Assembly (NCBI GenBank): GCA_944392975.1
Contig: CALXYN010000004.1
Span: forward strand, 1 to 64,000
DNA length: 64,000 nucleotides
Source of the DNA: an uncultured Spirochaetaceae bacterium
GTDB lineage: Bacteria; Spirochaetota; Spirochaetia; Sphaerochaetales; Sphaerochaetaceae
Direction: 5' to 3'
A model generated the notes under the pieces. It ran no database searches, was not told the origin of the DNA, and was given only the letters and a program-made list of their open reading frames with translations. A program made the translations under genes and the position numbers. Below are positions 33,503 through 62,676 of the stretch, one piece after another (position 1 is the stretch's first letter; every line of letters begins with the position of its first letter).

Positions 33503-35056
33503 ATGTCCAGAGAAAATCATGACACGATAATCGTTCTCGATTTCGGCGCGCAGTACAGTCAGCTCATAGCACGTAGGGTGAGAGAATGTGGTGTATATAG
33601 CCAGATTTATCCGTTCACAGTTTCTGCAGATGAAGTAAGGAGAATTAATCCGAAAGGAATCATATTCTCCGGAGGTCCTGCAAGTGTTAAGACTCCGGGG
33701 TCGCCACGTCCTGACAGTGCCATATTCTCTCTTGGAATTCCGATTCTTGGAATTTGTTACGGTCTGCAGGTGATGTCTGAAGTTCTTGGAGGCAATGTAA
33801 TCTGCCCGGAGAAAAAAGAGTATGGCCTTCAGAACATCGATATTGTGGATTCTACCACAGAGCTTCTGAAAGATGTTTCAGATAAAAGCCAGGTGTGGAT
33901 GAGCCATGGAGATTCAGTTGAAAAAATTCCTGCAGGTTTCCGTGTGACGGCTAAGACTCCTACCTGCCCATACACTGTAATAGAAGACAGAGCGCGGAAA
34001 TTCTACGGTGTGCAGTTCCATCCTGAAGTTGTTCATTCTGCTGAGGGCGATAAGATGATCCGTTCTTTTGTTCTTGATATCTGTAAGGCAAATGCAGACT
34101 GGAACATGGGATCTTTTGTAAGCGATGCAGTAGAGGCCATCAGAAAGACCGTCGGAAACAAACGTGTGCTCTGTGGACTTTCAGGTGGTGTTGACTCATC
34201 AGTGGCTGCAGTTCTTATCCATAAGGCTATTGGTGATCAGCTGGTATGTGTATTTGTCAACAATGGAATGCTCAGAAAGAATGAGGCAGAATCTGTATTG
34301 GAACTTTTTGGAAAGCATTTCAATATGAATCTGCGATATGCAGATGCAACAGATGATTTCCTTTCTGCATTGAAAGGTGTTACGGAACCCGAAGCAAAAA
34401 GAAAGATAATCGGACGTGTTTTTGTCGATACTTTCTATCGTGAGGCAAGAAAATGCGGTGATATAGCATTCCTTGCACAGGGGACACTGTATCCGGATGT
34501 TATTGAATCGCGTTCTCCTTCTGGAGGACCTTCTTCTACGATAAAATCTCATCATAATGTAGGTGGCCTTCCAGAGGATCTGAAGTGGCAGCTTCTAGAG
34601 CCACTGAGAGATCTTTTCAAAGATGAGGTCAGAGCATTAGGCAAGGAACTTGGTTTACCTGATGAGCTTGTTTATCGTCATCCATTCCCTGGTCCTGGGC
34701 TTGGTGTGAGATGTATCGGTGAAGTTACTAAAGAGCGCCTTGATACTTTGAGAGAAGTAGATGCAATCTTCATTGATGAGATTAGAAAAGCAGGCCTTTA
34801 TGATAAGATCTGGCAGGCCCTTGCTGATTTGCTTCCTGTAAAGAGCGTAGGTGTTCAGGGGGATGAAAGAACATACAGGGAAGTCTGCACCCTCCGTGCA
34901 GTTACAAGTGAGGATGCCATGACTGCTGATTGGTACAGAATGCCTTATGATGTCCTTCAGCGTGCTGCATCCAGAATCTGCAATGAGGTTCCAGGTGTAA
35001 ACCGTGTTCTTTATGATATTTCATCAAAACCACCTGCAACAATTGAGTGGGAGTAA
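33503..35056 (+). CDS. guaA: GMP synthase (glutamine-hydrolysing)
   Basis: Converts XMP to GMP using glutamine and ATP. The glutaminase domain has ILGICYG with the nucleophilic Cys near residue 84 and FHPEV with the catalytic His. The ATP pyrophosphatase domain has the PP-loop LSGGVDSSV near 223. The C-terminal dimerisation domain ends in KPPATIEWE as usual. The ATG at 33503 with GAGGAGGC upstream fits the family. The frame extends to 33470 but that part is not conserved. Confidence 0.97.
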   Translation: MSRENHDTIIVLDFGAQYSQLIARRVRECGVYSQIYPFTVSADEVRRINPKGIIFSGGPASVKTPGSPRPDSAIFSLGIPILGICYGLQVMSEVLGGNVICPEKKEYGLQNIDIVDSTTELLKDVSDKSQVWMSHGDSVEKIPAGFRVTAKTPTCPYTVIEDRARKFYGVQFHPEVVHSAEGDKMIRSFVLDICKANADWNMGSFVSDAVEAIRKTVGNKRVLCGLSGGVDSSVAAVLIHKAIGDQLVCVFVNNGMLRKNEAESVLELFGKHFNMNLRYADATDDFLSALKGVTEPEAKRKIIGRVFVDTFYREARKCGDIAFLAQGTLYPDVIESRSPSGGPSSTIKSHHNVGGLPEDLKWQLLEPLRDLFKDEVRALGKELGLPDELVYRHPFPGPGLGVRCIGEVTKERLDTLREVDAIFIDEIRKAGLYDKIWQALADLLPVKSVGVQGDERTYREVCTLRAVTSEDAMTADWYRMPYDVLQRAASRICNEVPGVNRVLYDISSKPPATIEWE

Positions 35057-35491
35057 CCTCTCAGACCGGACGATAATGGTTAAGTCCGCAATGCCTGAGT
35101 CCCGGGATTTCGATATCGTGGTAAGCACGGAGAAGTTCGATCTCATCGGCATGGCAGAGGATGAGTGACGGTATCTGGAGACGGCGATAGGTGAGGGGCT
35201 ATCTGCCCCTTGCTATTGCTGAACTGCATCTTGAGAGTCGGAACGGAATTCTCCAATCCTTCTTTCCGATAAGAAGGCGAGGAGATTTTAAGCGTTGAAT
35301 CCAGATTTCTTTGGAAGGTATCGATGGCCATATTCGAATAGATATGTTCTATGCTATGTCGTTCATCTGGAAGTCCGCAAGTATTGCTTATATAAGCAAG
35401 TATAAATGTGAATTACAAAATATTATAATTTTGTGGCAAGATTTGCCTTGCTGTTGCCTATGTTATATCATTATCTGTATTGGAGGCATAA
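35057..35491. other. Intergenic stretch with one coding-like fragment
   Basis: There is no intact gene. On the minus strand, 35061-35198 is an open frame of about 45 codons without a start. It reads ILCHADEIELLRAYHDIEIP and ends NHYRPV-stop. Its composition looks like real protein, but I cannot name it, so it may be the tail of a decayed gene. The last 100 bases are AT-rich and probably hold the promoter of the AraC gene. Confidence 0.4.
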
Positions 35492-36271
35492 TTGGATCCT
35501 AGGCTTAAGGATATAGTTGTTACAGATATCACGGACGTGATGATGGTCAACATCCTTGGTGGCAATAAGAAACGCCATATTACAAGAAATGTTTATGGAT
35601 TATCGTTCTGTAACGACGGAGAGATCATATATGATCATGATGGTAGACGATTTGTTTCGGATTCCAGTCATGTTATGATACTTCCTAAGGATATGTCATA
35701 TACGATCCATGAAATAAGTCCTGGGCTTTTTCCTGTAATTAATTTCACTTGTACTGAGCCTTGCAGTATAGATGAATTTATACCGTGCGAGGTTGAGTCG
35801 ATGGGCATTTTCATGAATGCCTATGAATACCTTCAGAAGTTATTCCTTTTCAAAAAGGAGGATTTTCGTTTCAAGGCTCTCGGTGCTATGTATGATATGC
35901 TTAGTAATCTCACCGTTGCGGATTATCACAGCAAGGAATATCTTTCAATACTGCCAGGAATCCGCTATATGGAAGAGAATTTTTCCGATCCAATGTTATC
36001 TGTTGAGAAGATGGCTAGCATATCCGGCATGAGCGTGGCATATTTCCGCAGGCGATTCGAAAACGTATATGGAACTTCTCCTAGGAAGTATTTGATTGAT
36101 ATAAGGATAAAAAGAGCAAAGCAGCTACTTAACGCAAACAGGCCATCGATTCAGGATATATCTGCAGCTTGCGGCTTCGCAAGCGTTCATCATTTTTGCC
36201 GTTGTTTCAAGGACATAGTTGGCTGTACTGCCACTGAGTATTATGAGCAGTATGGCATGAAAGGCATTTAA
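35492..36271 (+). CDS. AraC family transcriptional regulator
   Basis: A 259-residue regulator. The N-terminal cupin-like sensor (about 1-140) is followed by the AraC double helix-turn-helix (about 155-258), with VEKMASISGMSVAYFRRRF as the first and IQDISAACGFASVHHFCRCF as the second HTH. The start codon is TTG, supported by GGAGG five bases upstream. It lies directly before the catabolic TRAP operon in the same direction and is the obvious candidate to activate it in response to its substrate. Confidence 0.92.
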   Translation: MDPRLKDIVVTDITDVMMVNILGGNKKRHITRNVYGLSFCNDGEIIYDHDGRRFVSDSSHVMILPKDMSYTIHEISPGLFPVINFTCTEPCSIDEFIPCEVESMGIFMNAYEYLQKLFLFKKEDFRFKALGAMYDMLSNLTVADYHSKEYLSILPGIRYMEENFSDPMLSVEKMASISGMSVAYFRRRFENVYGTSPRKYLIDIRIKRAKQLLNANRPSIQDISAACGFASVHHFCRCFKDIVGCTATEYYEQYGMKGI

Positions 36272-36406
36272 CATTTTTTAGAGTATTTAACAAAATCGAT
36301 AAAAATTTCAAATTAATAAAGTATCGAAAATAACAATAAACCATCTGTAATCTAAATTGACAGCCCGTTTCTTGCAAACAAATAATGTAATCAGCAGGTG
36401 ATAAAG

Positions 36407-37159
36407 ATGGATTTTCTCAGAAAGACTGTTGTTATTACGGGAGCAGCATCGGGAATAGGCTTTTTATGCTCTAAGAATTTCGCAGAAAATGGTGCAAATA
36501 TTGCGATGCTTGATGTAAATACTGAAAATTTGGGTAATAAAGTTAATGAGCTGAGAGCTCTTAGTTATGATGCCATTGGTGTTGCTGTCGATATCAGGAA
36601 TTATGGTCAGATTGTAGAAGCCAGGGAAAAGATAATTAATGAATTTGGAAGCATTGATATCGTTGTCAACTGTGCCGGTGGTTCATCAAAGCGAATTTGG
36701 AAATGTGATGATGAATTTATCAATGTTCCAATTGAGGTTTTTGATTGGGGCATTGATGTTAATCTCAAAGGTCCCTTTTATGTTGCTCATGCAATGATGA
36801 AGCAAATGGTTGCGCAAAAAAGTGGAGTGATCGTGAATATTGGATCAATCACGGGCGAGGAAGGATGTCCCTCCGCCATAGATTATTCTGCAGCAAAAAG
36901 CGGAGTTATGTATGGCATGACGAAATCACTGGCCTTGTATGGGGCGCAATATGGAATAAGAGTCTGCTGCGTATCCCCTGGCCCTGTCCTGACCAGAGCC
37001 GCAATGAGCAATATGTCTACGCTTGTTGGCCGTGCTGCAGATCCACAGGAGATAGTCGACTTAATCTTGTATGTTGCTTCTGAGAAGGGCGCATTCATCA
37101 CAGGTACGAATTATCTGATTGATGGTGGCAGAAACATCATGAGGATAAAGAAGGGGTAA
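36407..37159 (+). CDS. Short-chain dehydrogenase/reductase
   Basis: About 250 residues, Rossmann fold. The NAD(P) motif TGAASGIG sits near residue 13, NCAGG follows, and the catalytic YSAAK is near 162. The C-terminal INYLIDGG-type end is normal. AGGTGA five bases before the ATG at 36407 decides the start over the GTG at 36398. It is the first gene of the putative cyclic-acid operon, where it could oxidise or reduce a ring hydroxyl. TTGACA at 36357 may be part of its promoter. Confidence 0.9.
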   Translation: MDFLRKTVVITGAASGIGFLCSKNFAENGANIAMLDVNTENLGNKVNELRALSYDAIGVAVDIRNYGQIVEAREKIINEFGSIDIVVNCAGGSSKRIWKCDDEFINVPIEVFDWGIDVNLKGPFYVAHAMMKQMVAQKSGVIVNIGSITGEEGCPSAIDYSAAKSGVMYGMTKSLALYGAQYGIRVCCVSPGPVLTRAAMSNMSTLVGRAADPQEIVDLILYVASEKGAFITGTNYLIDGGRNIMRIKKG

Positions 37160-37162
37160 GAC

Positions 37163-37948
37163 ATGGAAGTGAAGCCGACATTCCTTAACCAGCAGAATCC
37201 TATATTATGTGCGATAACCGAATGCAGTGATCCAGAATCCATAATATCAGATATGTGCAATTCATTTGATGATGGCGCAGATGCCTTTGCCATCGAAATG
37301 GATCACATGAATGATGATGATAAGACTCTTTCAAAATTGAGGTACATCTTTTCCTTCGCAGGAAGAAAGCCGATATATGTTACGAATTATCGGCAAAATA
37401 AAAATTCTGGAAAAACCGATGAAGAGCTTGTGGCTGAATTATTGGTTGCCCTGGAAGCTGGGGCGACTTTGATTGATGTCATGGGAGATCTGTATGATCC
37501 GCACCCACTTGAGTTGAGCTTTGATGAAAAAGCTGTAGAAAGGCAGATGAAGCTGATTGATCTGATACATGAGAGGGGCGGAGAAGTGTTGATGTCATCT
37601 CATGCAAAAACCTTTCTTGAAGAAGCAAAGGTCATTGAGTTTGCCTTGGCTCAAGCCAGCAGGGGGGCGGATATATCCAAGGTCGTGACATGGGCAGATG
37701 ACTATGATGAGCTTTTGGAGAATCTTAGGACGTCCGTGCATCTGAAAGAAAGGCTTGATATTCCATTCCTATTCCTTTCCTGTGGGAAATGTTGCCGTAT
37801 ACAGCGTATCACGGGATATATGTATGGTTCCTCGATTGTACTAAGTGTTCCGAAATATGCGGATATAACATCTAGGTGGCAGCCTACTGTTCGAGCTATG
37901 AGGGCCGTTCTTTCCAATACGAACTGGAGTATGTACAGGGATGAGTGA
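37163..37948 (+). CDS. Divergent type I 3-dehydroquinate dehydratase-like enzyme
   Basis: A 261-residue TIM-barrel protein resembling AroD, which dehydrates 3-dehydroquinate through a lysine Schiff base. The catalytic His (MSSHAK, residue 147) and the Schiff-base Lys (GADISKVV, residue 173) are conserved at nearly the same spacing as in E. coli (143/170). The YRQNK motif keeps Arg77, but the position of E. coli Glu86 is Asn81. The APGQ substrate-lid sequence is replaced by a DITSRWQ region. A related but different substrate is therefore likely. It is translated between an SDR and TRAP genes, which suggests catabolism rather than the biosynthetic shikimate pathway. Confidence 0.75.
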   Translation: MEVKPTFLNQQNPILCAITECSDPESIISDMCNSFDDGADAFAIEMDHMNDDDKTLSKLRYIFSFAGRKPIYVTNYRQNKNSGKTDEELVAELLVALEAGATLIDVMGDLYDPHPLELSFDEKAVERQMKLIDLIHERGGEVLMSSHAKTFLEEAKVIEFALAQASRGADISKVVTWADDYDELLENLRTSVHLKERLDIPFLFLSCGKCCRIQRITGYMYGSSIVLSVPKYADITSRWQPTVRAMRAVLSNTNWSMYRDE

Positions 37949-37961
37949 AAAGGAGCTGAGA

Positions 37962-38498
37962 ATGAAGAAGAAGCTAGTTTTTCTAATAAGGAATTGGGAG
38001 GATATTCTTGCTGCAATATTTCTCTCTGTGATGGTTCTTACCGCCATATTCAATGTTTTTACAAGATATATTCTTAATTATCCATTCACATGGGCTGAGG
38101 AACTTGAATGTATCTGTTTGGTATGGGCGACATTCACGTCAGCCGCTGCTGCCTATAAGAAGAATATGCATTATGGCATGGACTTTCTTGTAGATAGGCT
38201 TCCGATGAAATCAAAAATCCTGCTTAGGAGGATAATAGTATTTATCAGCATCTTTTTCTTTGCTTTCCTTTTGTATCTATCAATTATTTTTATTGGACAA
38301 GTTACAAAAACTACTATTTTCTTCCGTCTTAGCTATAAATATATTGATTCAGCAGCGATAGCTGGTTTTTTGAGTATGGAAATTTATTCGATCCTTTATT
38401 TCATCGAATCATTCACGCATCCAGAAAGATTTGCAGCAAGGTACATCGCTGCTTATGAAGAAGATCAGGTAGAAAGCATTGAAGGAGGCAACTCATGA
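37962..38498 (+). CDS. TRAP transporter small permease (DctQ)
   Basis: About 178 residues with four hydrophobic helices. The typical WAEELECICLVWATF motif is near residue 48. AGGAG upstream of the ATG at 37962 supports that start; the ATG at 37941 overlaps the preceding gene. It ends overlapping dctM by four bases. With dctM and the distant dctP it forms a Na+-driven importer for a carboxylated substrate. Confidence 0.9.
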   Translation: MKKKLVFLIRNWEDILAAIFLSVMVLTAIFNVFTRYILNYPFTWAEELECICLVWATFTSAAAAYKKNMHYGMDFLVDRLPMKSKILLRRIIVFISIFFFAFLLYLSIIFIGQVTKTTIFFRLSYKYIDSAAIAGFLSMEIYSILYFIESFTHPERFAARYIAAYEEDQVESIEGGNS

Positions 38499-39784
38499 CG
38501 TTATATCCTGTTGTTTTGTTATTCCTTTTATTTGGAGCAGGTGTTCCTGTAGCAATTGCTCTAGTCATGTGCTTGATAGGGTATTTCTTATCTGATCCTT
38601 ATATTTCGGCAACCGTGATTATCCAGAGGATGGTTGCCAATGTGGAGAATCCTTCTATGATGGCTGCTCCGATGTTCATAATCGCAGGATCCATCATGAG
38701 CCAGAGCGGTGTGACGAGCCGCCTGATGGATTTAGCTGATTGCTTTGTCGGAAGCCTTCGAGGTGGACTCGGACATGTCAATATACTTCTGTCTACTATG
38801 ATGGGAGGGATATCTGGTTCCGGAGCAGCCGATGCCGCATCGGATTGCAAGATTTTGGTTCCGGAGATGGCTAAGCGTGGATATTCGAAAGCTTACAGCG
38901 CGGCTGTCACAGCTGCTTCTGCAGTGATAACTCCGATAATTCCTCCAGGAGTCGGTCTTGTCATATTCGCAGCTCTTTGCGAAGTCTCTGTTGGTAAGCT
39001 CTTCTGTAGTGGGTATGTCCCCGGAATAATGATGTGCATTGGCATGATGATTTGGAATAGTATCTGGGCAAAGAAGAATGGCATACAGAAGACACGGGAT
39101 AGGATTGCTGATAAGAAAGAGATTTGGAAGGCCTTGAAGGAATCTGCATGGGCCTTGGTTATCCCATTCGTTCTTATATTAGGACTCAGAGCTGGAGCAT
39201 TTACTGCTGTTGAAGGTGGTGCGATAATCGCCCTTTATTCCGTATTTGTCGGCAAATTCATCTATAAGGAGCTGAGATTCAGGGATTTGCCAAAAATAAT
39301 GTTTGAATCTGTACTTTCCATCGGCCCCGTTATGCTCGTACTCTGCGGAGCAAACGTATTCAGTTATTATCTTAGCTGGGAACGTGTACCGCAGGCTATT
39401 ACGGCGGCTGTTGCAGATTTGAGTGCAAATAGGATCTTGTTTCTTCTGATAATCGATGCAATGATGTTAATCCTCGGCATGTTCCTTGATGGCATGGCTT
39501 GCATGATGATTGTTGCTCCTCTGCTTGCTCCTGTAGCGACAGCCTTGGGTGTGAATCTAATTCATTTCGGTATTGTGATGTGCCTGTGTACGGCAATCGG
39601 CGCAATAACTCCGCCGTTTGGTACTTACATATTCCTTGTGTCCGGGGCTATCAAGGTAAGGACAGCTGAGGTATGCAAGCAGCTTGTCCCATTCATAATC
39701 ATATGTGTGATCGTACTGTTGCTTATCACGATATTCCCGGATCTTACGTTGATTATACCGAAGCTGGTCTATGGATCTGTTTGA
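38495..39784 (+). CDS. TRAP transporter large permease (DctM)
   Basis: A 429-residue polytopic protein. It has features of the DctM elevator-type transporter, including the helical-hairpin regions MMGGISGSGAADAA and ITPIIPPGVGL. The second set is in the C-terminal half (GAITPPFGTYIFLVSG), together with FLDGMACMMIVAPLLAPV. It overlaps dctQ by four bases (ATGA), so translation is coupled. Confidence 0.94.
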   Translation: MTLYPVVLLFLLFGAGVPVAIALVMCLIGYFLSDPYISATVIIQRMVANVENPSMMAAPMFIIAGSIMSQSGVTSRLMDLADCFVGSLRGGLGHVNILLSTMMGGISGSGAADAASDCKILVPEMAKRGYSKAYSAAVTAASAVITPIIPPGVGLVIFAALCEVSVGKLFCSGYVPGIMMCIGMMIWNSIWAKKNGIQKTRDRIADKKEIWKALKESAWALVIPFVLILGLRAGAFTAVEGGAIIALYSVFVGKFIYKELRFRDLPKIMFESVLSIGPVMLVLCGANVFSYYLSWERVPQAITAAVADLSANRILFLLIIDAMMLILGMFLDGMACMMIVAPLLAPVATALGVNLIHFGIVMCLCTAIGAITPPFGTYIFLVSGAIKVRTAEVCKQLVPFIIICVIVLLLITIFPDLTLIIPKLVYGSV

Positions 39785-39797
39785 TTAGGAGAGTGTT

Positions 39798-40793
39798 ATG
39801 AAAGCGATTCTTATAAAGGATGATGAGAGGCGGAGCCTTATATGGACGAATGTTCCTGATCCATGTATCGGGTCTGACGAGATACTCATTGAGATACATG
39901 CTGCAGCATTGAACAGGGCTGATTTGATGCAGCGAGCAGGTGATTATCCTCCTCCTGAAGGATGTCCTGAATGGATGGGACTGGAAGTCGCGGGGGTAAT
40001 CGTTGCAATAGGTGATGTGGCTGAATCGGAGTCACAATGGAAGATCGGCGATAAAGTATGTGCCTTACTTGGTGGTGGAGGATACGCTGAATATGTCGCT
40101 GTCAGATATGACATGGCCATGCCTGTTCCTTCGAACTGTTCTATGATACAGGCGGCTGCTATTCCTGAAGCTTTTGCCACGTCTTATTTGAACTTGTTTA
40201 TCGAGGGTAATGCAAAAGATGGCGAAACATTGCTGATGAATGCTGGAGCAAGTGGTCTTGCCAGTGTCCTAATCCCTATGGCAAAGGCTTTTGGATTGAG
40301 AGTGATCACCACTGTACTTACACAGAAGATTGCTGATTCCCTCGGACATCTTAATGCCGACCGTGTCATAGTGACGGAGAAGGAAAGCATAGCAGATGTC
40401 ATGAAGAGAGAACTAGCGGCTGGCCATGGTGTAGATATTGCGATTGATTGTCTAGGAGGTCCCGCTGTCTCGGAGTGTCTTCCTTATATGGAAAGAGATG
40501 GTAGATGGATAATCATAGCGACATTGGCTGGTGATGAGGCCCTGATTGATATGAAGCTTATGTATAAGCATTCATTGCGGATCATTGGAAATACTCTTAG
40601 GGCTAGGACTCCTGCGATGAAGGCTAGAATACTCTCAGCTCTTGTTCGTGATGTTTGGCCTAAGGTAGTAAGGGGTGAAGTTATGCCAACAATCTATAAG
40701 ACATTCCCTATTGAACAGGCAGAGGAAGCCCAGGCAATCCTCCAGCGTGGCGAGAATGTCGGTAAGGTCGTACTTGTCGTGAAGGAGAAATAA
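39798..40793 (+). CDS. Zinc-independent MDR-family NAD(P)H oxidoreductase (quinone reductase-like)
   Basis: A 331-residue medium-chain reductase. It lacks the structural-zinc cysteines and follows the quinone-oxidoreductase/PIG3 pattern: ALNRADLMQRAGDYPPPEG near residue 41 and NADPH motif MNAGASGLASVLIPMAKA near 147. Members reduce quinones or activated double bonds. In this operon it could reduce an enone or enoyl product formed by the dehydratase-like enzyme, which is inference. A spaced GGAG precedes the ATG. Confidence 0.88.
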   Translation: MKAILIKDDERRSLIWTNVPDPCIGSDEILIEIHAAALNRADLMQRAGDYPPPEGCPEWMGLEVAGVIVAIGDVAESESQWKIGDKVCALLGGGGYAEYVAVRYDMAMPVPSNCSMIQAAAIPEAFATSYLNLFIEGNAKDGETLLMNAGASGLASVLIPMAKAFGLRVITTVLTQKIADSLGHLNADRVIVTEKESIADVMKRELAAGHGVDIAIDCLGGPAVSECLPYMERDGRWIIIATLAGDEALIDMKLMYKHSLRIIGNTLRARTPAMKARILSALVRDVWPKVVRGEVMPTIYKTFPIEQAEEAQAILQRGENVGKVVLVVKEK

Positions 40794-41528
40794 TTGGATG
40801 GATTTACAGATAAGACTGCGGTGATAACTGGAGCTGCTGCCGGTATAGGACTTGCTACTGCAAGGATGCTCTTTGATTTCGGCGCACATGTCATGCTGAT
40901 TGATATAGATGAATCTATGGCTGAAGCTGCGGCGGAAGCGATAGATCCTTCTGGGGATGCAGCTAAGGCATATCGCTGTGATATAAGCGATGAGGATTCA
41001 GTAAGGAGAGTATTCTGTGATATCAGGGAGAAGTCAATATCTGTCGATATACTTGTGAATAATGCAGCAATCTGGCGGACTGGTAATGCTGAGTTCATAT
41101 ATTCCGATTCCTATAATTGGAAAAGGAAGATAGGTGTTAACATCCTAGGGACCATGTATTGTACTCATGCTGCGTTAAGAGGAATGACCGATAGAGGCTG
41201 GGGGCGGATAATCAATGTGTCATCCGTTGCAGGAATATATGGTATTCCTTACATGTCAGATTATTCGATGACCAAAGGAGCTATAGACAGCTTTACGAAG
41301 GCTGTTGCCAAGGAGGTTGCTGCCTTTGGGGTCACAGTCAATGCAGTTGCTCCTGGAAATGTTAACAGCGATGGTTCGAAGGAGCATGAGAGAGAGGATC
41401 TTTCATTCATACCGCATTCCTGTCGTCCAGAGGATGTCAATGAGTTGATCTGCTTTCTTGCAAGTAATCAGGCTGGATATATTACAGGGCAGGTAATCCA
41501 GATAGATGGATGTCGTAAGAAGGTATAA
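40794..41528 (+). CDS. Short-chain dehydrogenase/reductase
   Basis: A 244-residue SDR with TGAAAGIG near residue 11, NNAAIW near 86 and catalytic YSMTK near 155. The start codon is TTG directly after the TAA of the previous gene, supported by AAGGAG six bases upstream. The nearby ATG at 40798 is out of frame. It is the second SDR of the operon, paralogous to the one at 36407 but clearly different in sequence. Confidence 0.9.
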   Translation: MDGFTDKTAVITGAAAGIGLATARMLFDFGAHVMLIDIDESMAEAAAEAIDPSGDAAKAYRCDISDEDSVRRVFCDIREKSISVDILVNNAAIWRTGNAEFIYSDSYNWKRKIGVNILGTMYCTHAALRGMTDRGWGRIINVSSVAGIYGIPYMSDYSMTKGAIDSFTKAVAKEVAAFGVTVNAVAPGNVNSDGSKEHEREDLSFIPHSCRPEDVNELICFLASNQAGYITGQVIQIDGCRKKV

Positions 41529-41570
41529 AGCATCTTGTATCAACAGGATATTCGAAAAAAGGAGAAAGAA

Positions 41571-42575
41571 ATGAAGAAAGTGCTTACTGTCTTGGCAGTA
41601 CTCATGATGTTTGTGAGTATTGTATTCGCAAGTGGTTCTGCAGAAGGAGATGGCCCTAAGGTCACGACTCTTAAGATCTCTATCTCAGAGACTCCTGCAG
41701 ATATCAAGGCCCAGCTCATAAACGATATGATAAAGGAGATGGAGGAACTCAGCGGAGGAGAACTTAAGTTTGAGCTTTATTGCTCGAACGAGCTTGGGTC
41801 ATTGGGTGATGTTGTCGAGCAGACTAAGATCGGTGCGAATATCATCTCTGGAACTTCTGGTGATTTCTATGCTACTTATGGAGCTCCGGACATCATGGCA
41901 ACGGCCCTGCCTTATGTCATAAAGACCGCCGATGAATGTGAAAACCTTAACAGTTCTGATCTATTCAAGGAATGGGCGGATGCGATTGAGGCTGAATCGG
42001 GACTTAAGCTGTTTAATATCGGATGGTGTTCTACTCCTAGAGATATCATATCGATAAAGCCGATAAATAGTGTTGAAGACCTTTCGGGATTCAAGATCAG
42101 GATACCCGGAGCTGCAATGGATGCATTCTTTTCTGCTCTTGATGCATCTACGATGTCAATGGCCTTCTCGGATGTCTATACGAGTATGCAGCAAGGTATG
42201 ATTGATGGGGCAGAGGCTGGCATATCTGGGCTGTATTCGTATTCTCTTCAAGAAGTCGGAAAGTATGTATTCATGTCTGAGCATTCGCTTGCTCCTGCTG
42301 TATGGTCTATGAGTTCGGCTGTATGGAATAGCCTTTCTGAGGAAAATCAGAAGATACTCGTGGAAACATTTGAGAAGTATAGCCGGCTTTATGCAGAGAA
42401 AGGGCTTGAGCTTCAGCAGGAGTATATCGACAAGATGACATCTGAAGGTGTTACATTCATTTATCCATCAGAGTCCGACAAGGTTGCAATGGCTGATGCT
42501 GCAGTAAAGGCTATAGCGTCATTTCCTGAGTTGTCTGAAGGACTTTCCGATAGGATTGCGGAAGCAATAGAATAA
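41571..42575 (+). CDS. TRAP transporter solute-binding protein (DctP)
   Basis: About 334 residues with a signal peptide ending around VFASGSAEG. The TRAP P-subunit fold is recognisable from ELGSLGDVVEQTKIGANI and VEDLSGFKIRIP, where the conserved Arg contacts the substrate carboxylate. DVYTSMQQGMIDGAE is the family's most conserved stretch. AAGGAGAAAGAA precedes the ATG at 41571, and the earlier in-frame start at 41535 has no site. It captures a carboxylated compound for DctQM, which lies upstream. Confidence 0.93.
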   Translation: MKKVLTVLAVLMMFVSIVFASGSAEGDGPKVTTLKISISETPADIKAQLINDMIKEMEELSGGELKFELYCSNELGSLGDVVEQTKIGANIISGTSGDFYATYGAPDIMATALPYVIKTADECENLNSSDLFKEWADAIEAESGLKLFNIGWCSTPRDIISIKPINSVEDLSGFKIRIPGAAMDAFFSALDASTMSMAFSDVYTSMQQGMIDGAEAGISGLYSYSLQEVGKYVFMSEHSLAPAVWSMSSAVWNSLSEENQKILVETFEKYSRLYAEKGLELQQEYIDKMTSEGVTFIYPSESDKVAMADAAVKAIASFPELSEGLSDRIAEAIE

Positions 42576-42604
42576 TCTCATTGTCAGCTTGACTTATTAT
42601 TCTG

Positions 42605-42638
42605 TTGAGGCCGTCGCTAATTCTGCGGCGGCCTTCAA
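42605..42638 (+). terminator. Probable terminator of the TRAP operon
   Basis: AGGCCGTCGC (42608-42617) and GCGGCGGCCT (42625-42634) form a 10-bp stem with one G-T pair and a seven-base loop. It lies 32 bases after the DctP stop. The following sequence is only moderately T-rich. Confidence 0.65.
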
Positions 42639-42741
42639 TATGATGCGATGGCTGAGCGTAGTCAGTGGTTGCATGCGTTTATGCCGGTTCGTAATCAGGT
42701 TTTGTTGTTCTATGTCCGCGGTATGATGATGTGATGCACTT

Positions 42742-43195
42742 TCAGGCTTTCCTGAATATGCCTTCTTCCTGCTTCACTCCCTCATTCATCGCCCTTATGA
42801 CTCCCATGGTCATCGGTACAGACATGAGGAATGTCACGAGGTCTGCAAGCGGCTGGGCTATCTGTATGCCCCAGATGCCGATGAGGGGAGGCAGTATCCA
42901 GACTATCGGTATGAGTATGATCCCCTGGCGGGCAAAGCCCAGTATCGAGGCTCGCCACATCTTCCCTGTCGTCTGCAGCAGCATGTTGCTTATAGTGATC
43001 CATGATGAGAATACGAGCGTGAAGCATCTGAGCCTCAGCGCTATGTCTCCGATCTCTATGACCTCCGCATCCCCCGCCGGAAGAAGCCTACTATCGGGGA
43101 GGCCCAGATGTACTCTATGACCGCGAGGACCAGAAGGACTGCTGACTGTAAGAGCCAGTAAAAAAACGTCCGCATCCCCTTCGTTCCCTTTTCAT
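42742..43195 (-). pseudogene. C-terminal fragment of a second MATE transporter, frameshifted
   Basis: The minus strand encodes the last ~150 residues of a MATE exporter: YWLLQSAVLLVLAVIEYIWA, then GDAEVIEIGDIALRL, then a GKMWRASILGFARQG to SVPMTMGVIRA end. The two parts are in different frames. Joining them needs one extra G in a run of five G near 43077. The front two-thirds of the gene is missing and is replaced by the head of an IS21 transposase. Bases here look richer in G and C than the surrounding genes, suggesting transfer. The left boundary of the fragment is approximate. Confidence 0.8.
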
Positions 43196-47278: not shown

Positions 47279-47293
47279 TTTCCTAGGAAATTA
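47276..47293. repeat. 18-bp palindrome covering both convergent stop codons
   Basis: TAATTTCCTAGGAAATTA is a perfect palindrome. The NUDIX gene ends with its first TAA. The helicase ends with the TAG on the other strand in its centre. Without a loop it is a poor terminator, but it could be a protein-binding site. Confidence 0.6.
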
Positions 47294-50210
47294 TGTAATC
47301 AAAGATGTCTCTTCTTACTGGTGTTGAGATCTGATAATGGATAGCAAATGCATCGGTATCTTTGCCGTCGTTGTCTTTTATCTTGACAGCTTTTGCATCC
47401 CCGATAGCTTCTAGAGTTCCAAGGAAATAGAATTCTTTTCTCTCATCAATTGTATTCTTTCTGACGAAGAGAAGAATCGTGTTTTCTTTATCGCTTTCCT
47501 GTATTTTATAGATATGGTTATAGTCAGAACAGCCGATTCTTCTTTTCTTCTTTGAATACGTGATTATATTGCTTTCATCAAGGAATTTATCAGGATAGGG
47601 AATCGCAGAGTCTTTCTTTTCATAATTTACGAAGACAGGAAGAGTTTTTGTCTTGCTGTCATAGAAATAGCCTCCGATATTTAGCGGGTTCATGTTTGTT
47701 TCCCAGCATAGAAGTCTGCATACATCTTCATAGGTGTATTTCTCGTAGAGCACGAACGGAGTATCTGCATATGTTGTCTGATAAAATTCGCTATTTCTCC
47801 TTAAGCCATCATCCACCACTTCTGAAAGTAACTCTCTGAATAACTGATTTCTCATCATATTTGACAACCTTGCAGAAGGAATAACAACATTACTACTAAT
47901 GGATATCAGTGGTGTTGAACCATATTGCAGAGCTTCTTGCTTCTTGAGAAAAGACATATCCAGATTGCTAATCATAGAATTCAGTACTTTCCCTAAAGAT
48001 TTCTGTTCGTATTGTAAGTGATAAGTCAGTTGCTCCGTTGTCTGCATATCATAGCTTTCTTTATAATCATCCAGTACGATTTTGAAGAATTTCAATTCTG
48101 CCCTGCGCTTTCCGTCTTCAAATTTCCTTGATATGTATTTAAGTACAGCTTCTTCGTCTTTTGATAGTTCCTTTCCATATTCCTCGTCGGCCTTTTTCAC
48201 AAATGAGTAATACGAACCGGCATAATCAATGAAATTGAGAACATCGATTGCTTTTTCTCTATGGAAATCAGAAATTGATGGTATGTGTCCAAGTCGGTTC
48301 TTAAGGGAAAAATACTCTTTCTTAAGAAATGCATACTTGCGAAGATTACTCTGATCGATATTTCTGTAGATCAGGTCCTTTGAAATGGCATCAAAATCAA
48401 TCGTAGAACTTCCTGGTATGACAGAGGATCCTTCTGTTATGTATTTTCTCAGGTTGTCTTTATCGTATGTGTTGTCTCCTGAAAGAGCTACCGGAATGAG
48501 AAAAGATTTCTTGTAATTGCCGATGAAGTCAATAGCGACAAGATATTCTTTTCCGTTTGCATTTTTCCTCAATCCCCGCCCCAGCTGCTGTATGAATATT
48601 ATCGATGACTCAGTCGGGCGGAGCATTATTATCTGATTGACTTCTGGTATATCAATGCCCTCATTGAAGGTGTCAACAGTGATTATGAAATCAAGAATTT
48701 CACCATCATCATTCTGAAGCCTTCTGACATATTCCTCTCTGAGATCAATACATGTTTCTCCTATTACATATGCAGCTTTCCAGTTTCTGTTGCTGTTTTT
48801 CTTCCTTTCGTTTATTTTCTCGGCAAGCAGTTTTGCTTCTTTCACATGCGAACAGAAGATTAGTCCTTTTAATCTTTCCCCGCTGAAGCCATAGTATTCT
48901 GATTTTTCAAGAATCCTGTTGACACGTTCATCTGCAGTAAGATCGTTAAAATCTGCTTCTTCCTGTATTGTCTTACCATCGATTGTTATATCTGCAATTC
49001 CGAAGTAGTGGAAAGGGCAGAGCAGATTATTCTCAAGGGCATCCTTAAGCCTTATATCAATTGCTATGTTATAATCAAAAAGTTCGTAGATGTTTTCCTT
49101 GTCTGGACGATCCGGTGTTGCAGACATCCCAAGAAGGAATGCAGGTTTGAAATATGACATTATCCTTCTGTAGGAAGGTGCCGCAGCTTTATGGACTTCA
49201 TCAATTATCATGTAATCAAAATAGTCCGGGGCAAATGTCTTATGGATTTCAGGTTTTGATATCGTCTGTATTGTTGAGAAGACATATTTCTTGTTGAAAT
49301 TTTTTTCGTTTCCCGTGATGAACCCTATATCGTTCTTTATACCGGTACCGAGAACATCGATAAAGCTATCAGCGGCATCATGCAGAATTTGCTCTCGGTG
49401 CACAATGAAAAGCATATGCTTTGGGTTGAAGGATCTTGTATCAAAGGCTGAAAGATAAGTTTTTCCAGTTCCTGTTGCAGCAATCAGCAGAGCTTTATTC
49501 TTTCCTTCCTGTCTCATCCTATGAAGTGAAGAGGCTGCCACTTTCTGCATTTGATTCGGCTCAATAGTATAAGTGATTATTCTTGTTTCTTGTTCAACGG
49601 TACGACGTATTTCCTGCTCTTTTTTATACCGCTCATCATATTCATGTAACCATGATTCAGTGAGCGGAATTGCAGTTTCCCAGAGTTCTTCGAATGCCTC
49701 CTTAAATTCCTCTGTCAGTCCTCCTTGATCAAGGGCTGAAGCTCTGATATTCCATTCCCGGTTTGATTTAAGAGCTCCACCTGTGATATTCGAACTGCCG
49801 ATTATTACAGTGTTTTTAGTACCATCGTTGAAGAAATAACCTTTTGTGTGAAAAGCTTCCTCGGTAACAATCCTTACTTCTATGAAGTTGTAAGTGAGTA
49901 GCTTATGCAAAGCTTTTGGTTCGGTATAGTTCAGGTAATCTGTTGTGATAATCTTTCCAACAGTTCCAGTATTTTCGATATCCTTGAATGTTTGGATAAG
50001 CATTTCAAGACCACTCATGCGGATAAAGGATACTGAGAACATGAATTCTTTTGCGGTTCTGAGTTCTTTCTTTATATGCGAGAGGATATCATTCTGCTTC
50101 TTCTTCGAATTGTCGATAATCGAAGGGCTGAGATGCAGACTATGTTCTATACTCGAATCTATGAATGCAGCCTCTGCTGCGTGTGATATATCCTTCGCCA
50201 GATTATCCAT
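47283..50210 (-). CDS. PLD-like nuclease / SF2 helicase / DUF3427 fusion protein
   Basis: A 975-residue three-part protein. A phospholipase D-like domain (about 40-185) contains HTKGYFFNDG and VIIGSSNITGG with the HxK pair His121/Lys123. A superfamily II helicase (about 215-600) has Walker A AATGTGKT near 244, DEVH at 337-340, GMSATPDRP and motif VI QLGRGLRK. The C-terminal ~300 residues match DUF3427. Such proteins are scattered in accessory regions and resemble restriction-type or defence helicase-nucleases; no function is established. With the NUDIX neighbour it could be an antiviral or DNA-damage system. No Shine-Dalgarno precedes the ATG. Confidence 0.9.
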   Translation of the reverse strand: MDNLAKDISHAAEAAFIDSSIEHSLHLSPSIIDNSKKKQNDILSHIKKELRTAKEFMFSVSFIRMSGLEMLIQTFKDIENTGTVGKIITTDYLNYTEPKALHKLLTYNFIEVRIVTEEAFHTKGYFFNDGTKNTVIIGSSNITGGALKSNREWNIRASALDQGGLTEEFKEAFEELWETAIPLTESWLHEYDERYKKEQEIRRTVEQETRIITYTIEPNQMQKVAASSLHRMRQEGKNKALLIAATGTGKTYLSAFDTRSFNPKHMLFIVHREQILHDAADSFIDVLGTGIKNDIGFITGNEKNFNKKYVFSTIQTISKPEIHKTFAPDYFDYMIIDEVHKAAAPSYRRIMSYFKPAFLLGMSATPDRPDKENIYELFDYNIAIDIRLKDALENNLLCPFHYFGIADITIDGKTIQEEADFNDLTADERVNRILEKSEYYGFSGERLKGLIFCSHVKEAKLLAEKINERKKNSNRNWKAAYVIGETCIDLREEYVRRLQNDDGEILDFIITVDTFNEGIDIPEVNQIIMLRPTESSIIFIQQLGRGLRKNANGKEYLVAIDFIGNYKKSFLIPVALSGDNTYDKDNLRKYITEGSSVIPGSSTIDFDAISKDLIYRNIDQSNLRKYAFLKKEYFSLKNRLGHIPSISDFHREKAIDVLNFIDYAGSYYSFVKKADEEYGKELSKDEEAVLKYISRKFEDGKRRAELKFFKIVLDDYKESYDMQTTEQLTYHLQYEQKSLGKVLNSMISNLDMSFLKKQEALQYGSTPLISISSNVVIPSARLSNMMRNQLFRELLSEVVDDGLRRNSEFYQTTYADTPFVLYEKYTYEDVCRLLCWETNMNPLNIGGYFYDSKTKTLPVFVNYEKKDSAIPYPDKFLDESNIITYSKKKRRIGCSDYNHIYKIQESDKENTILLFVRKNTIDERKEFYFLGTLEAIGDAKAVKIKDNDGKDTDAFAIHYQISTPVRRDIFDYIIS

Positions 50211-55322: not shown

Positions 55323-56213
55323 TTACATCGTCTGGAAATTCTGAAGTTCCTTTATTGACTGGCTTATAAAAGAAAGGAATCTGTTGGTTATCAAAGAGGA
55401 TTTACGCAAAAAGTAGAGACCAATTTCAATATCCTGCTTGGGACGTATAGGGAGAACCACAATTCCCGAGTGCGAGGCAGGAACCTGGGACTCTATAATC
55501 ATCGTTATTCCAAGTCCAGCTCTTACAAGAGCAAGTGCTGCCAGACTGTCTGATGTAGTATATTTTGTGTTTGGTCTTATACCTGCTTCCCTCAGAACTT
55601 CCTTTACTTCACTTTCGTACCCTGGATTTATGTCAATGTATGGATACTTGATGAAATCTTCTACATCAAAACCCTTCTGTCGTGCTGTCTGATGGGATTC
55701 GGGTACAAGAGCAACAAGTCTTGTCCTCTGAAAAGGCAGCCATACCAGTTTATCATTTCCGCTTTCATGATTTGTAGTGACAGCAATATCTAAAGACCTA
55801 GAGATTATTGATTGCAGAAGTTCAGATTTGCTTTTCCACAATATGCTGACCTTTATATTCGGGAATAGCTCAACAAATTTTGCCACCATGGTTGAAAGTA
55901 TTCCGTAGCTTGAGCTGTAAGAGGTTCCGATAACCAATGATCCCGTTTCGAAGCCTTTCACTCGAAGTACTGTCTCATTTATTGCATCTTCTGCACTCAA
56001 AAGAGCTCTGACCTCGTGCATCAGAAGATTGCATTCTTTTGTAGGAGAAACGCCCTTCCGGCTTCTTACCAGGAGCTGAAATCCGATTTCGCTTTCCAGA
56101 CTTGCTATGATGCGGCTTACTCCAGACGTCGTATAATTGTTGCATGCCGCAGCTGCTGCAAGGCTTCCACAGTCCAGTGCAGATACCAAAACTCTCCATT
56201 TTTCAATATCCAT
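55323..56213 (-). CDS. LysR family transcriptional regulator
   Basis: A 296-residue regulator. The N-terminal winged HTH is GSLAAAAACNNYTTSGVSRI followed by ASLESEIGFQLLVRSRKGV. The periplasmic-binding-like effector domain spans about 90-290. It is divergent from the SLC13/SDR/amidohydrolase/BCCT operon, the usual arrangement for a LysR activator of a catabolic operon. AAAGGA lies about nine bases before the ATG. Confidence 0.92.
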   Translation of the reverse strand: MDIEKWRVLVSALDCGSLAAAAACNNYTTSGVSRIIASLESEIGFQLLVRSRKGVSPTKECNLLMHEVRALLSAEDAINETVLRVKGFETGSLVIGTSYSSSYGILSTMVAKFVELFPNIKVSILWKSKSELLQSIISRSLDIAVTTNHESGNDKLVWLPFQRTRLVALVPESHQTARQKGFDVEDFIKYPYIDINPGYESEVKEVLREAGIRPNTKYTTSDSLAALALVRAGLGITMIIESQVPASHSGIVVLPIRPKQDIEIGLYFLRKSSLITNRFLSFISQSIKELQNFQTM

Positions 56214-56317
56214 GGGGTCTATCCTTTGCTTGTTTTCTTATATTTTATCATTGACGAAATGTCAACAATAACTTGAGAAAGTTTCGTTTTACAAAATGTA
56301 TTACATGATGATTTAAT

Positions 56318-56339
56318 TACTCCAGTTCAGACCGGAGTA
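56318..56339. promoter_or_regulatory. Inverted repeat in the LysR/permease intergenic region
   Basis: TACTCC (56318-56323) and GGAGTA (56334-56339) are inverted arms separated by ten bases. It is in the 258-base divergent gap, where a LysR-type operator is expected. The arms are short, so it may be chance. Confidence 0.35.
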
Positions 56340-56471
56340 TCCGGGTGAAGGAGATATTTTTTTTCAGAAACGATGCAGTGAAGGGGCAGCATCCACATAT
56401 CTTAACATGTTCAGCTGCTTTGGCTTGGTTTCTATGCCCCTTTTTGGCATACGTTTCAAAAGGAGCTGCCA

Positions 56472-57755
56472 GTGAGTTCAATGGCAATATGTCTGATCAT
56501 CTTTGTCGCGATGATCATCCTGTTCTTCAATCGTAAAATCCCCATGTCCTTTACCAGCATGGGTGTCATTGTGGCACTATATGTTACGGGGTGTGTTGAT
56601 GCGAATGCCGTCTTTGCGGGATTTGGAAATAACAACGTCCTTACAATGGCTGGAATGTTCATTGTTGCAGCTGGTCTTTCAAGGACTCAGATGGTCAGCA
56701 ACATCACAAAGCTCCTGTATAGAATAAACAATGGTTCTTTCACCAAGATTCTTGCATCATACATCCTTGTAATTTTCATCCTCGGACAATTTGTACCAAG
56801 TCTTCCAGCTCTTTTCGCCATGGTATATCCACTTGTCGTGAATATGTGCAAACAGCTGAAGGTCAGCCATTCGAAGATGATGTATCCAATTGCTGTAACT
56901 GTCGTATCCACTTCATTTGTAATTGAGCCAATCGGACCTTATGCGGCATGGTATGTCACACAGAATGGATATCTTGAATCATATGGATGGGCTGGTGCAC
57001 CTCTTCAGATGTGGAGTGAAACACTGGTATTCCTTCCGACAGCTATCGTTACGCTGCTTGTTGCGATTTTTATTCTTCCAAAGCTTATGCCTGATCAGCC
57101 GGAAATTCCAACAACAGCCATAACAGGGGCAAGCCTTACAGATCAGGAACCACTTTCCAAGTTCCATGAAGTTCTGGGATATGGAGTTTTCATTCTTGTT
57201 GTAATCGGTCTCATGGCAGGTCTTCCATCTTGGGCAGTTACAATGGCAGGTGCTGCTGTAATTGTTATGTTCGGAGTTCTTGAAGAAAAGGAAGCTCTTA
57301 TCAAGATGAATATGAGCATGGTTCTCCTTTATGCTGGTGTTACTGTCATGGGAAGTGCACTTGGCAATACTGGTGCTGCTAATATCCTCGGAGATGGAGC
57401 TGCTGCAATTCTCTCGCATGTACATAATGGCTACGTAATCGGTGCGGTTTTCTATATTGTCTCCTTCCTCATGACATCATTCCTTTACAACAAAGCTACG
57501 ACAACAGTTCTTATTCCGATTCTTGTAATCACATGCGGATCCATAGGTTGTGATCCAAGAGGTCCGGTCATTCTTTGCTCTCTTGCATCTATGTCTTCTC
57601 TCATTACTCCGATGCCGAATCCTGTTGTACCAATGGCCATGCAGGCTGGTGGATATACACAGAAGACAATTCTAAAGGTTGGTCTCATTCCAGCAGTAAT
57701 CCGTGGAATTGTCGGTGTTGGAATCGCTATGACCATTTTCCCGGCATTCGGCTGA
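56472..57755 (+). CDS. SLC13 family anion permease
   Basis: A 427-residue polytopic protein of the SLC13/DASS group (Na+-coupled dicarboxylates, sulfate and similar anions). It has the two repeat-related features of the family, GFGNNNVLTMAGMFIV in the first half and the TSFLYNKATTTVLIPILV / ITPMPNPVVPMAM region in the second. It starts with GTG at 56472 with AAAGGAG seven bases upstream. It is the first gene of the LysR-flanked operon. Confidence 0.88.
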   Translation: MSSMAICLIIFVAMIILFFNRKIPMSFTSMGVIVALYVTGCVDANAVFAGFGNNNVLTMAGMFIVAAGLSRTQMVSNITKLLYRINNGSFTKILASYILVIFILGQFVPSLPALFAMVYPLVVNMCKQLKVSHSKMMYPIAVTVVSTSFVIEPIGPYAAWYVTQNGYLESYGWAGAPLQMWSETLVFLPTAIVTLLVAIFILPKLMPDQPEIPTTAITGASLTDQEPLSKFHEVLGYGVFILVVIGLMAGLPSWAVTMAGAAVIVMFGVLEEKEALIKMNMSMVLLYAGVTVMGSALGNTGAANILGDGAAAILSHVHNGYVIGAVFYIVSFLMTSFLYNKATTTVLIPILVITCGSIGCDPRGPVILCSLASMSSLITPMPNPVVPMAMQAGGYTQKTILKVGLIPAVIRGIVGVGIAMTIFPAFG

Positions 57756-57778
57756 TAAGGTTTTAAGGAGATAAAGAT

Positions 57779-58561
57779 ATGAATCGTTTTGATAATAAAG
57801 TAGTGGTTATCGCGGGCGGCGGATCTGGAATGGGTCGTGTGTCCTGTCAGAAGTTTGCAGCAGAAGGTGCTGCAGTCGGTGTTGTTGATATCAATGAAGC
57901 AGGAGCTGCAGAGACAGTCAGGCTCATAGCTGAGGCAGGTGGAAAAGCAAAGGCCTATAAAGTGGATATCACAAAAGAAGATGAGATGAAGAAGCTCTTC
58001 TCAGATGTCGTTGCTGATTTCGGGCGTATTGATGTTTATTTCACAATTGCTGGTATTAGTCCTGTTGGTACTGCGACAACAACAGAATTCGAGGATTTCA
58101 AAAAAGTTGTCGAACTTGATATGTACAGCGTATTCCTTGGATGTAAATATTCGATTCCTTACATGGAGCAGCAGGGAGGCGGGGTTATCATTGTACTCAG
58201 TGGTACGTATGGAATTCGCCCAACCCCTAACAAAATCGGTTATTCTGCAGCCAAAGCAGGAGCTATCAGTCTCACACGCTCTGTTGCTATAGATTTTGCA
58301 AGAAGCAATATCCGCTGCAATACAATCTGCCCGGGTTTTGTGAATACGCCTCTTAATAATGGCTTTGAAGGAGAGGCTCGCCAGAGATTCCTCAATACTT
58401 ATCAGCCGGCACCTTTCGAGATTCAGAGTGAGGATATTGCCAATACTGCACTTTTCCTTGCCAGTGATGATTCAAGGGCAATTACCGGACAGACAATTGT
58501 TGTTGATGGTGGTACAGAGGCTGCGCTTTATCTTAACTATAAGCGTCCTTCAGCAAAATAA
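57779..58561 (+). CDS. Short-chain dehydrogenase/reductase
   Basis: A 260-residue SDR. The nucleotide motif is AGGGSGMG near residue 12, and the catalytic YSAAK is near 160 after LSGTYGIRPTPNKIG. The C-terminal ITGQTIVVDGG is typical. AAGGAGA precedes the ATG. In the operon it presumably oxidises an alcohol of the imported compound or of the amidohydrolase product; this is inference. Confidence 0.9.
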   Translation: MNRFDNKVVVIAGGGSGMGRVSCQKFAAEGAAVGVVDINEAGAAETVRLIAEAGGKAKAYKVDITKEDEMKKLFSDVVADFGRIDVYFTIAGISPVGTATTTEFEDFKKVVELDMYSVFLGCKYSIPYMEQQGGGVIIVLSGTYGIRPTPNKIGYSAAKAGAISLTRSVAIDFARSNIRCNTICPGFVNTPLNNGFEGEARQRFLNTYQPAPFEIQSEDIANTALFLASDDSRAITGQTIVVDGGTEAALYLNYKRPSAK

Positions 58562-58572
58562 GGAGGTATACG

Positions 58573-61613: not shown

Positions 61614-61647
61614 AATTTGCTATTTTATTCGTTTTTGATTTGATTCG

Positions 61648-61675
61648 GGACTCTGCTTTTTGCGGAGTCCTTTTT
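61648..61675 (+). terminator. Intrinsic terminator of the BCCT operon
   Basis: GGACTCTGC (61648-61656) pairs with GCGGAGTCC (61662-61670) with one T-G pair and a five-T loop. TTTTT follows. Confidence 0.88.
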
Positions 61676-61756
61676 GCATCCAGAATAATCGAAAAATCGT
61701 ATAAATAAAAAATCCAGATTATTTTCGTTTCCAGCAAACAAAGAATTTAAAAATGT

Positions 61757-61775
61757 TGTAACTCTTGACATTACA
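61757..61775. promoter_or_regulatory. Candidate Rrf2 operator before the SnoaL-like gene
   Basis: TGTAACTCTTGACATTACA matches the site at 62621-62639 in 16 of 19 positions. Its outer arms are an imperfect inverted repeat (TGTAAc / aTTACA). It contains the -35 hexamer TTGACA, so a bound repressor would block RNA polymerase. Confidence 0.6.
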
Positions 61776-61793
61776 TCAATGATGGTTTATCTT
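61765..61793 (+). promoter_or_regulatory. Promoter of the SnoaL-like gene
   Basis: A perfect -35 TTGACA (61765-61770), a 17-base spacer and TATCTT (61788-61793). The leader to the ATG at 61847 is about 47 bases. Confidence 0.65.
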
Positions 61794-61846
61794 GCAGTCA
61801 TAGATGAAACCGTAATGGTTACAACAATTAGTTTTGGAGGCATAGT

Positions 61847-62620: not shown

Positions 62621-62639
62621 TGTAATCATTGACATTACA
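62621..62639. promoter_or_regulatory. Candidate Rrf2 operator before its own gene
   Basis: TGTAATCATTGACATTACA has perfect six-base arms TGTAAT / ATTACA separated by seven bases. It starts at the stop of the SnoaL gene and contains TTGACA at 62629-62634. An overlapping second repeat, TGACA (62630-62634) / TGTCA (62642-62646), is also present. Confidence 0.6.
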
Positions 62640-62676
62640 CTTGTCATTGATTGAAAATGATGACAGGAGGAAGAGT

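Follow-up and report, generated by a model that had tools for sequence, protein, structure and literature searches.

In quinate and shikimate catabolic pathways, dehydrogenases and an importer of carboxylates accompany a dehydroquinase-fold enzyme, and the same combination is encoded by an operon at positions 35492-42575 (+ strand) of the DNA analyzed here, a stretch of 64,000 nucleotides from an uncultured Spirochaetaceae bacterium (contig CALXYN010000004.1; hereafter the window). Unlike those pathways, the operon lacks a quinate/shikimate dehydrogenase domain (none in its eight proteins by Pfam scan) and carries an enone reductase instead. Its dehydroquinase homologue, here called the AroD-like protein, shares with type I AroD (TIGR01093; Salmonella structures 3m7w and 1qfe) the fold and the equivalents of Lys170, His143, Asp114, Arg213, and Gln236, but differs in its low identity (18-19%), its non-conserved Glu46 and Glu86 positions, a D-V-M-G-D motif with an insertion, and neighbors of catabolic type. 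The transporter, of the tripartite ATP-independent periplasmic (TRAP) type, resembles sugar-acid TRAP systems such as the D-glucuronate system STM3169 (PMC7660916) in its DctP, DctQ, and DctM families and the two conserved arginines of DctP, and its relatives are located with UxuA and sugar-acid dehydratases; in contrast to these systems, dctP is parted from dctQM by two enzyme genes and the presumed asparagine position is not Asn. A fourth comparison is with the 3-keto-glycoside beta-eliminases AtOGE and PuCGE (PMC10628242), which likewise have a TIM barrel and carry out beta-elimination beside a ketone. Those enzymes use Mn2+ and belong to another family, whereas the AroD-like protein has a predicted lysine Schiff base, and its sequence and fold matches are dehydroquinases rather than Mn2+ eliminase families.

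We propose that the operon contains a conserved module that would oxidize, beta-eliminate, and reduce the resulting enone, acting on an imported sugar acid (an aldonate, a uronate, or a related lactone or acid), and that the AroD-like protein is a paralogue recruited from dehydroquinase with its chemistry predicted to be kept. This reading as a whole is given a probability of about 0.5. An earlier note, made from the sequence alone, had listed the eight genes, and their positions, order, and strand were borne out when the open reading frames (ORFs) were checked; Pfam and NCBIfam scans agree with the family names, and the AroD-like protein is the one assignment whose meaning needs correcting. 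The genes, including two short-chain dehydrogenases/reductases (SDRs) and a medium-chain dehydrogenase/reductase (MDR), are as follows.

35492-36271, +: AraC-family regulator, 259 aa (HTH_18, 6e-21)
36357-36386, +: candidate sigma-70 promoter, TTGACA-18-AATAAT, 11/12 match, inside the AraC-SDR1 gap
36398-37159, +: SDR1, short-chain dehydrogenase (adh_short, 2e-47; Ser and YxxxK present)
37163-37948, +: AroD-like predicted Schiff-base dehydratase/lyase, 261 aa (K173, H147, R215, Q240, D105-V-M-G-D109)
37941-38498, +: DctQ, small TRAP permease (Pfam, 2e-24)
38495-39784, +: DctM, large TRAP permease (1e-107; TIGR00786 cut-off exceeded)
39798-40793, +: MDR of the PIG3 quinone/enone reductase subfamily (TIGR02824, 333.2 bits against a cut-off of 296.8)
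40794-41528, +: SDR2, short-chain dehydrogenase (adh_short, 1e-52; Ser and YxxxK present)
41535-42575, +: DctP solute-binding protein (7e-54; probable start ATG at 41571, signal peptide)

Spacing within the operon runs from -8 to +13 bp, the sole real intergenic space being the ~127 bp between AraC and SDR1; sigma-70-like sites in the region are no more numerous than expected by chance. The evidence supports a catabolic-type operon whose AroD-like product is distinct from the biosynthetic dehydroquinase of the organism.

The AroD-like protein and its clade

The AroD-like protein scored 63 bits with the Pfam DHquinase_I model (PF01487; cut-off 22.2) and 44.2 bits with the aroD equivalog TIGR01093, below the cut-off of 139.3. 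Its AlphaFold2 model (pLDDT 96.8) was compared with the PDB using Foldseek, and the best matches were type I dehydroquinases (TM 0.77-0.78) at the low identity given above. A scan by alignment that covered 84,980 prokaryote species, with a single genome per species, resulted in 112 confirmed AroD-like loci, of which 80 were kept. Active-site residues were read against Klebsiella AroD, which is numbered one residue ahead of the Salmonella enzyme. Lys170, His143, Arg213, and Asp114 have invariant equivalents in the alignment (80/80; the Lys and His are K173 and H147 in the window), and an equivalent of Gln236 (window Q240) is present in 77/80. Glu46, Arg48, and Glu86 are not conserved across the same 80 members; the Glu86 column contains R, K, E, Y, H, and other residues, in a loop whose alignment is uncertain by one residue. 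A near-invariant D105-V-M-G-D109 motif, accompanied by an insertion, is specific to the clade, and an invariant Arg77 falls at the Arg82 position or one residue beyond, where the loop alignment is insecure. The part of dehydroquinase that is lost or changed in the clade is the part that meets the ring hydroxyls. Judged by these residues, the clade keeps the predicted sites of Schiff-base formation and carboxylate binding and has a changed putative pocket for the remainder of the substrate.

In a maximum-likelihood tree, two canonical AroDs split off from the clade with support of 100/99. The genome of the window (2.07 Mb, 109 contigs, 95% complete) was checked for aroQ or aroD elsewhere, as the earlier note had suggested, and contains another dehydroquinase, of canonical type (1.2e-48), within a frame of 493 aa; this is an AroD-AroE fusion whose C-terminal shikimate dehydrogenase half was judged by eye. 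With this separate fusion present, the AroD-like protein is not the only dehydroquinase of the organism; the note had named the opposite result as one that would refute its proposal, and this refutation did not occur. Among 24 other genomes with an AroD-like gene, AroQ was found in 21 and a canonical type I AroD in one more, while no AroQ or canonical AroD was found in the remaining two. These additional dehydroquinases suggest, indirectly, that the AroD-like protein does not serve chorismate synthesis. That it is an ordinary biosynthetic enzyme lying beside unrelated transport genes would agree with its passing the Pfam cut-off; this candidate was nevertheless rejected, and is considered very improbable, given the sub-equivalog score, the AroD-AroE of the genome itself, and AroQ or AroD in 22/24 other hosts (AroQ in most), together with the separate position in the tree and the conserved neighbors of catabolic type.

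Recurrent neighbors and the proposed chemistry

All ORFs around 82 AroD-like loci, the window included, were clustered; the resulting counts are lower bounds, as many of the contigs are short. SDR1 was found in 55 of the 82 neighborhoods and the PIG3-type MDR in 50, followed by a Gfo/Idh/MocA oxidoreductase (34), a second MDR-type alcohol dehydrogenase (30), an NmrA/epimerase-like protein (22), a LacI regulator (18), SDR2 (15), and AraC (15). The SDR1 homologues adjoining the AroD-like gene in many loci are ~47-61% identical. Among the 35 loci flanked by 7 kb or more on each side, 23 have SDR1 and 25 have the MDR; both genes invariably share the strand of the AroD-like gene, and 22 of these SDR1 genes and 20 of the MDR genes lie within 3 kb of the AroD-like gene. 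AraC is usually divergent and stands beside SDR1-AroD-like in many Clostridia loci, several of which have a minimal version composed of AraC, SDR1, AroD-like, and MDR. Also in several Clostridia, a gene for an MBL-fold lactonase-like protein lies between the AroD-like gene and the MDR, or beside the MDR, and in Victivallis vadensis DSM 14823 the AroD-like gene is accompanied by NmrA-like, Gfo/Idh-type, and MDR genes.

The locus nearest to the window in the tree (L018) encodes a 699 aa old-yellow-enzyme/FadH-type dienoyl reductase after SDR1-AroD-like, followed by a TRAP set, and no MDR was recognized near its AroD-like gene. That two unrelated ene-reductases hold a comparable position is the strongest indirect sign that an enone would be both made and reduced. 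The neighborhood survey thus upholds the dehydratase, dehydrogenase, and enone-reductase logic of the earlier note, as the SDR1-AroD-like-MDR set recurs across phyla, and open-access literature searches returned no description of the cluster, in agreement with the note's statement that no described pathway has this set. The conserved catabolic module around a repurposed dehydroquinase fold is real and apparently undescribed.

From these data an oxidize-eliminate-reduce chemistry is a reasonable inference, and we further infer a reaction order, cofactors, and a substrate class. The TRAP transporter would import a carboxylated polyhydroxy compound, and SDR1 would use NAD to convert one of its hydroxyls to a ketone. 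Lys173 of the AroD-like protein would form a Schiff base with the ketone made by SDR1, and the enzyme, with His147, would eliminate the hydroxyl at the beta position, or a different beta-substituent, leaving an enone. The C=C bond of this enone would then be reduced by the PIG3-type MDR, and SDR2 may act on a second carbonyl or alcohol.

Two plasmid-borne relatives are more elaborate. On a Mesorhizobium plasmid (L009, 11099-19926) the AroD-like gene occurs with genes for a FAH-type hydrolase, a FAD D-lactate dehydrogenase, several SDRs, DUF4286, and a PIG3-type MDR, and this cluster is an aerobic variant of the module. On a Halobellus limi plasmid (L011, 8258-10888), two AroD-like genes flank an SDR gene near galactonate dehydratase and MaoC-type genes.

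Substrate class and alternative readings

The TRAP set of the window is complete, with DctP, DctQ, and DctM all encoded. A conserved Arg pair and an Asn of DctP hold the ligand carboxylate in the family (PMC11668362); both family-conserved arginines are present in the alignment, and the presumed Asn position reads Ala/Gly in the alignment, the window protein likewise lacking Asn there. Among the relatives, G069 has the DctP-DctQ-DctM set closest to that of the window (48-50%, 51%, and 62% identical), and further relatives have DctP at ~42% identity. In these nearest relatives dctP, dctQ, and dctM are contiguous; in the window dctP does stand apart from dctQM, as the earlier note had remarked. 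The genes of the relatives lie together with those for MR/MLE galactonate-type dehydratases, for an RraA-like aldolase, and for UxuA and lactonases, and sugar-acid uptake is thereby suggested, by guilt by association at 40-60% identity.

The cyclic-acid substrate put forward in the earlier note fared less well, given the absence of a quinate/shikimate dehydrogenase domain from the operon, the loss of E46 and E86, and TRAP relatives that point to sugar-acid catabolism; some loci have GH2/GH35 glycosidases instead. In such a route, a cyclitol acid (quinate or shikimate) would enter through the TRAP transporter and, in the gut, undergo reductive deoxygenation in the direction of cyclohexane carboxylates. 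It would be in keeping with the carboxylate-binding Arg/Gln and D114 that the AroD fold retains, with the many hosts that are gut anaerobes, often of herbivores, with esterases close to the cluster in some Lentisphaeria, and with the link drawn between gut bacteria and quinic acid derivatives (PMC11602726). We regard this route as unlikely, and by analogy an aldonate- or uronate-like acid appears somewhat likelier than quinate or shikimate.

Several observations weigh against the proposed sugar-acid module. Glu86, which is counted with His143 and the Lys among the catalytic residues of dehydroquinase (M-CSA entry, PMC11796326) and is the partner of His143, is not conserved, so a different activity, such as that of an aldolase or isomerase, is possible. 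Specifically, the AroD-like protein might act on a 2-keto-3-deoxy acid as a class I (Schiff-base) aldolase or isomerase, with the SDR and MDR enzymes acting on its products, which would fit the changed pocket, the new D-V-M-G-D motif, and the FAH-type hydrolase and D-lactate dehydrogenase flanking the Mesorhizobium homologue. This is quite improbable in our estimation, as the dehydratase site retains each of H143, D114, R213, and Q236, the operon is without a canonical dehydratase to supply the keto acid, and the recurring enone reductase suits dehydration.

The window operon also lacks the Gfo/Idh/MocA and NmrA-like partners that are present in a quarter to two fifths of loci. Genes elsewhere in the genome were considered as the missing partners and rejected, the best matches to Gfo/Idh and NmrA-like proteins being only 22-33% and 25% identical, respectively, and no close orthologue of either was found. 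The Gfo/Idh/MocA gene in 34/82 neighborhoods, along with the glycosidases near some loci, is what a glycoside beta-eliminase might be expected to have beside it: a partner would oxidize C3 of a glycoside, the Schiff-base enzyme would expel the aglycone, which is the beta-substituent, to leave a 2-hydroxy-3-keto-glycal, and the MDR would reduce this product, with the same C3-ketone, C2-H, and C1-leaving-group geometry as in dehydroquinase. However, AtOGE and PuCGE are Mn2+ enzymes of another family, the Gfo/Idh partner is absent from the window operon, and the TRAP transporter and R215 favor a carboxylate; this activity, too, has little likelihood.

The remaining points against the sugar-acid module concern transport. 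Of the lineages represented among the loci, just two have TRAP genes beside the AroD-like gene (that of the window, G028, and G019, discussed below, and that of L018), leaving R215 and Q240 as the sole basis for a carboxylate substrate elsewhere; the TRAP genes are a local addition to the conserved module. Transporters of the other loci are heterogeneous (ABC sugar type, SSF, and NhaC type) and were for that reason rejected as a guide to the substrate, as were neighboring glycosidases, with GH2, GH35, and GH10-like genes occurring in single loci only and sharing no theme.

Distribution, transfer, and implications

The hosts of the AroD-like clade are mostly uncultured Oscillospiraceae and other Clostridia, Lentisphaeria (Victivallis), Verrucomicrobia, and Planctomycetota, and the 80 loci span Bacillota, Lentisphaerota, Verrucomicrobiota, Planctomycetota, and Spirochaetota, with remoter relatives on the Mesorhizobium plasmid and on haloarchaeal plasmids. 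Many hosts are gut anaerobes, often from herbivores. Of the 149 relatives searched, only G028, another species of the genus, had a match to the AroD-like gene apart from the genome of the window itself; a short contig of G019 carries the 3' portion of the operon, and AroD-like homologues of 36-40% identity are present in three more genomes from the phylum (G285, G300, and G158). In the tree, the window protein falls in a set of 35 rows, 32 of them Bacillota (support 98/94), and not with the three copies from its own phylum, and lateral acquisition of the gene is the simplest reading; old spirochaetal inheritance was rejected on this grouping and on G028 being the sole relative with the gene among those searched.

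More recent movement is suggested by a segment that encompasses the operon.

35055-43146, strand not assigned: 8.1 kb segment starting at the guaA stop codon, with flanks unrelated to those in G028

The segment is 98.3% identical to its counterpart in G028, and 98% identical over the 4.9 kb present in G019, while the guaA ends of these two genomes are only 78-81% identical to that of the window and the genes flanking the segment in G028 have counterparts of only 68-72% identity in the window genome. Identity to G028 is about 99-100% (about 99.7% overall) outside a patch in dctQ/dctM (38055-39055) of 88-90% identity, in which the changes are almost all synonymous, a pattern suggestive of recombination within the TRAP permease. 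The left junction lies at the guaA stop codon, two bases past GAGTGGGA (window 35045-35056). The sequence GAGTGGGA is the known integration core of guaA genomic islands (PMC9376610). In G028 the segment runs into a gene for an 841 aa protein on one side and one for a 460 aa MATE-like protein on the other; in the window both genes are cut at the junctions, and the right end (43146), inside the MATE-like gene, abuts a fragment of an IS21-type transposase. A complete guaA genomic island was rejected, as GAGTGGGA occurs once in the window, which thus lacks another attachment site, and the contig gave no integrase match. Partial guaA 3' ends occur elsewhere in other genomes of the genus. The simplest explanation is a recent transfer between species within the genus, and a chimeric contig is possible; the conclusions on clade and cluster are independent of such an artifact, since in G028 the genes on either side of the operon are intact.

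Elsewhere in the window, positions 55323-63126 encode, as judged by eye, a LysR-type regulator, a transporter, an SDR, an amidohydrolase-like protein, a second transporter, a SnoaL-like protein, and a Rrf2-like regulator, possibly a second catabolic cluster. Positions 47283-50210 encode a 975 aa protein that reads as PLD-type plus DEAD-box helicase and is possibly involved in defense or restriction.

Annotated records name the proteins of the clade 'type I 3-dehydroquinate dehydratase', and a whole catabolic route may therefore be hidden under a biosynthetic label. More tentatively, the clade could mark a widespread pathway of gut anaerobes: an AroD-derived Schiff-base dehydratase would work with an NAD dehydrogenase and a PIG3 enone reductase to remove oxygen from an acid of plant origin, for example quinate, shikimate, or a uronate, and the reduction step would act as an electron sink; if this is true, it would provide a possible genetic basis for the conversion of plant cyclitol acids in the gut. 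The AraC-SDR1-AroD-like-MDR set is small enough for direct assay, and identifying the substrate would add a new deoxygenation module, assign a new function to the dehydroquinase fold, and possibly explain the processing of plant acids by gut microbes.

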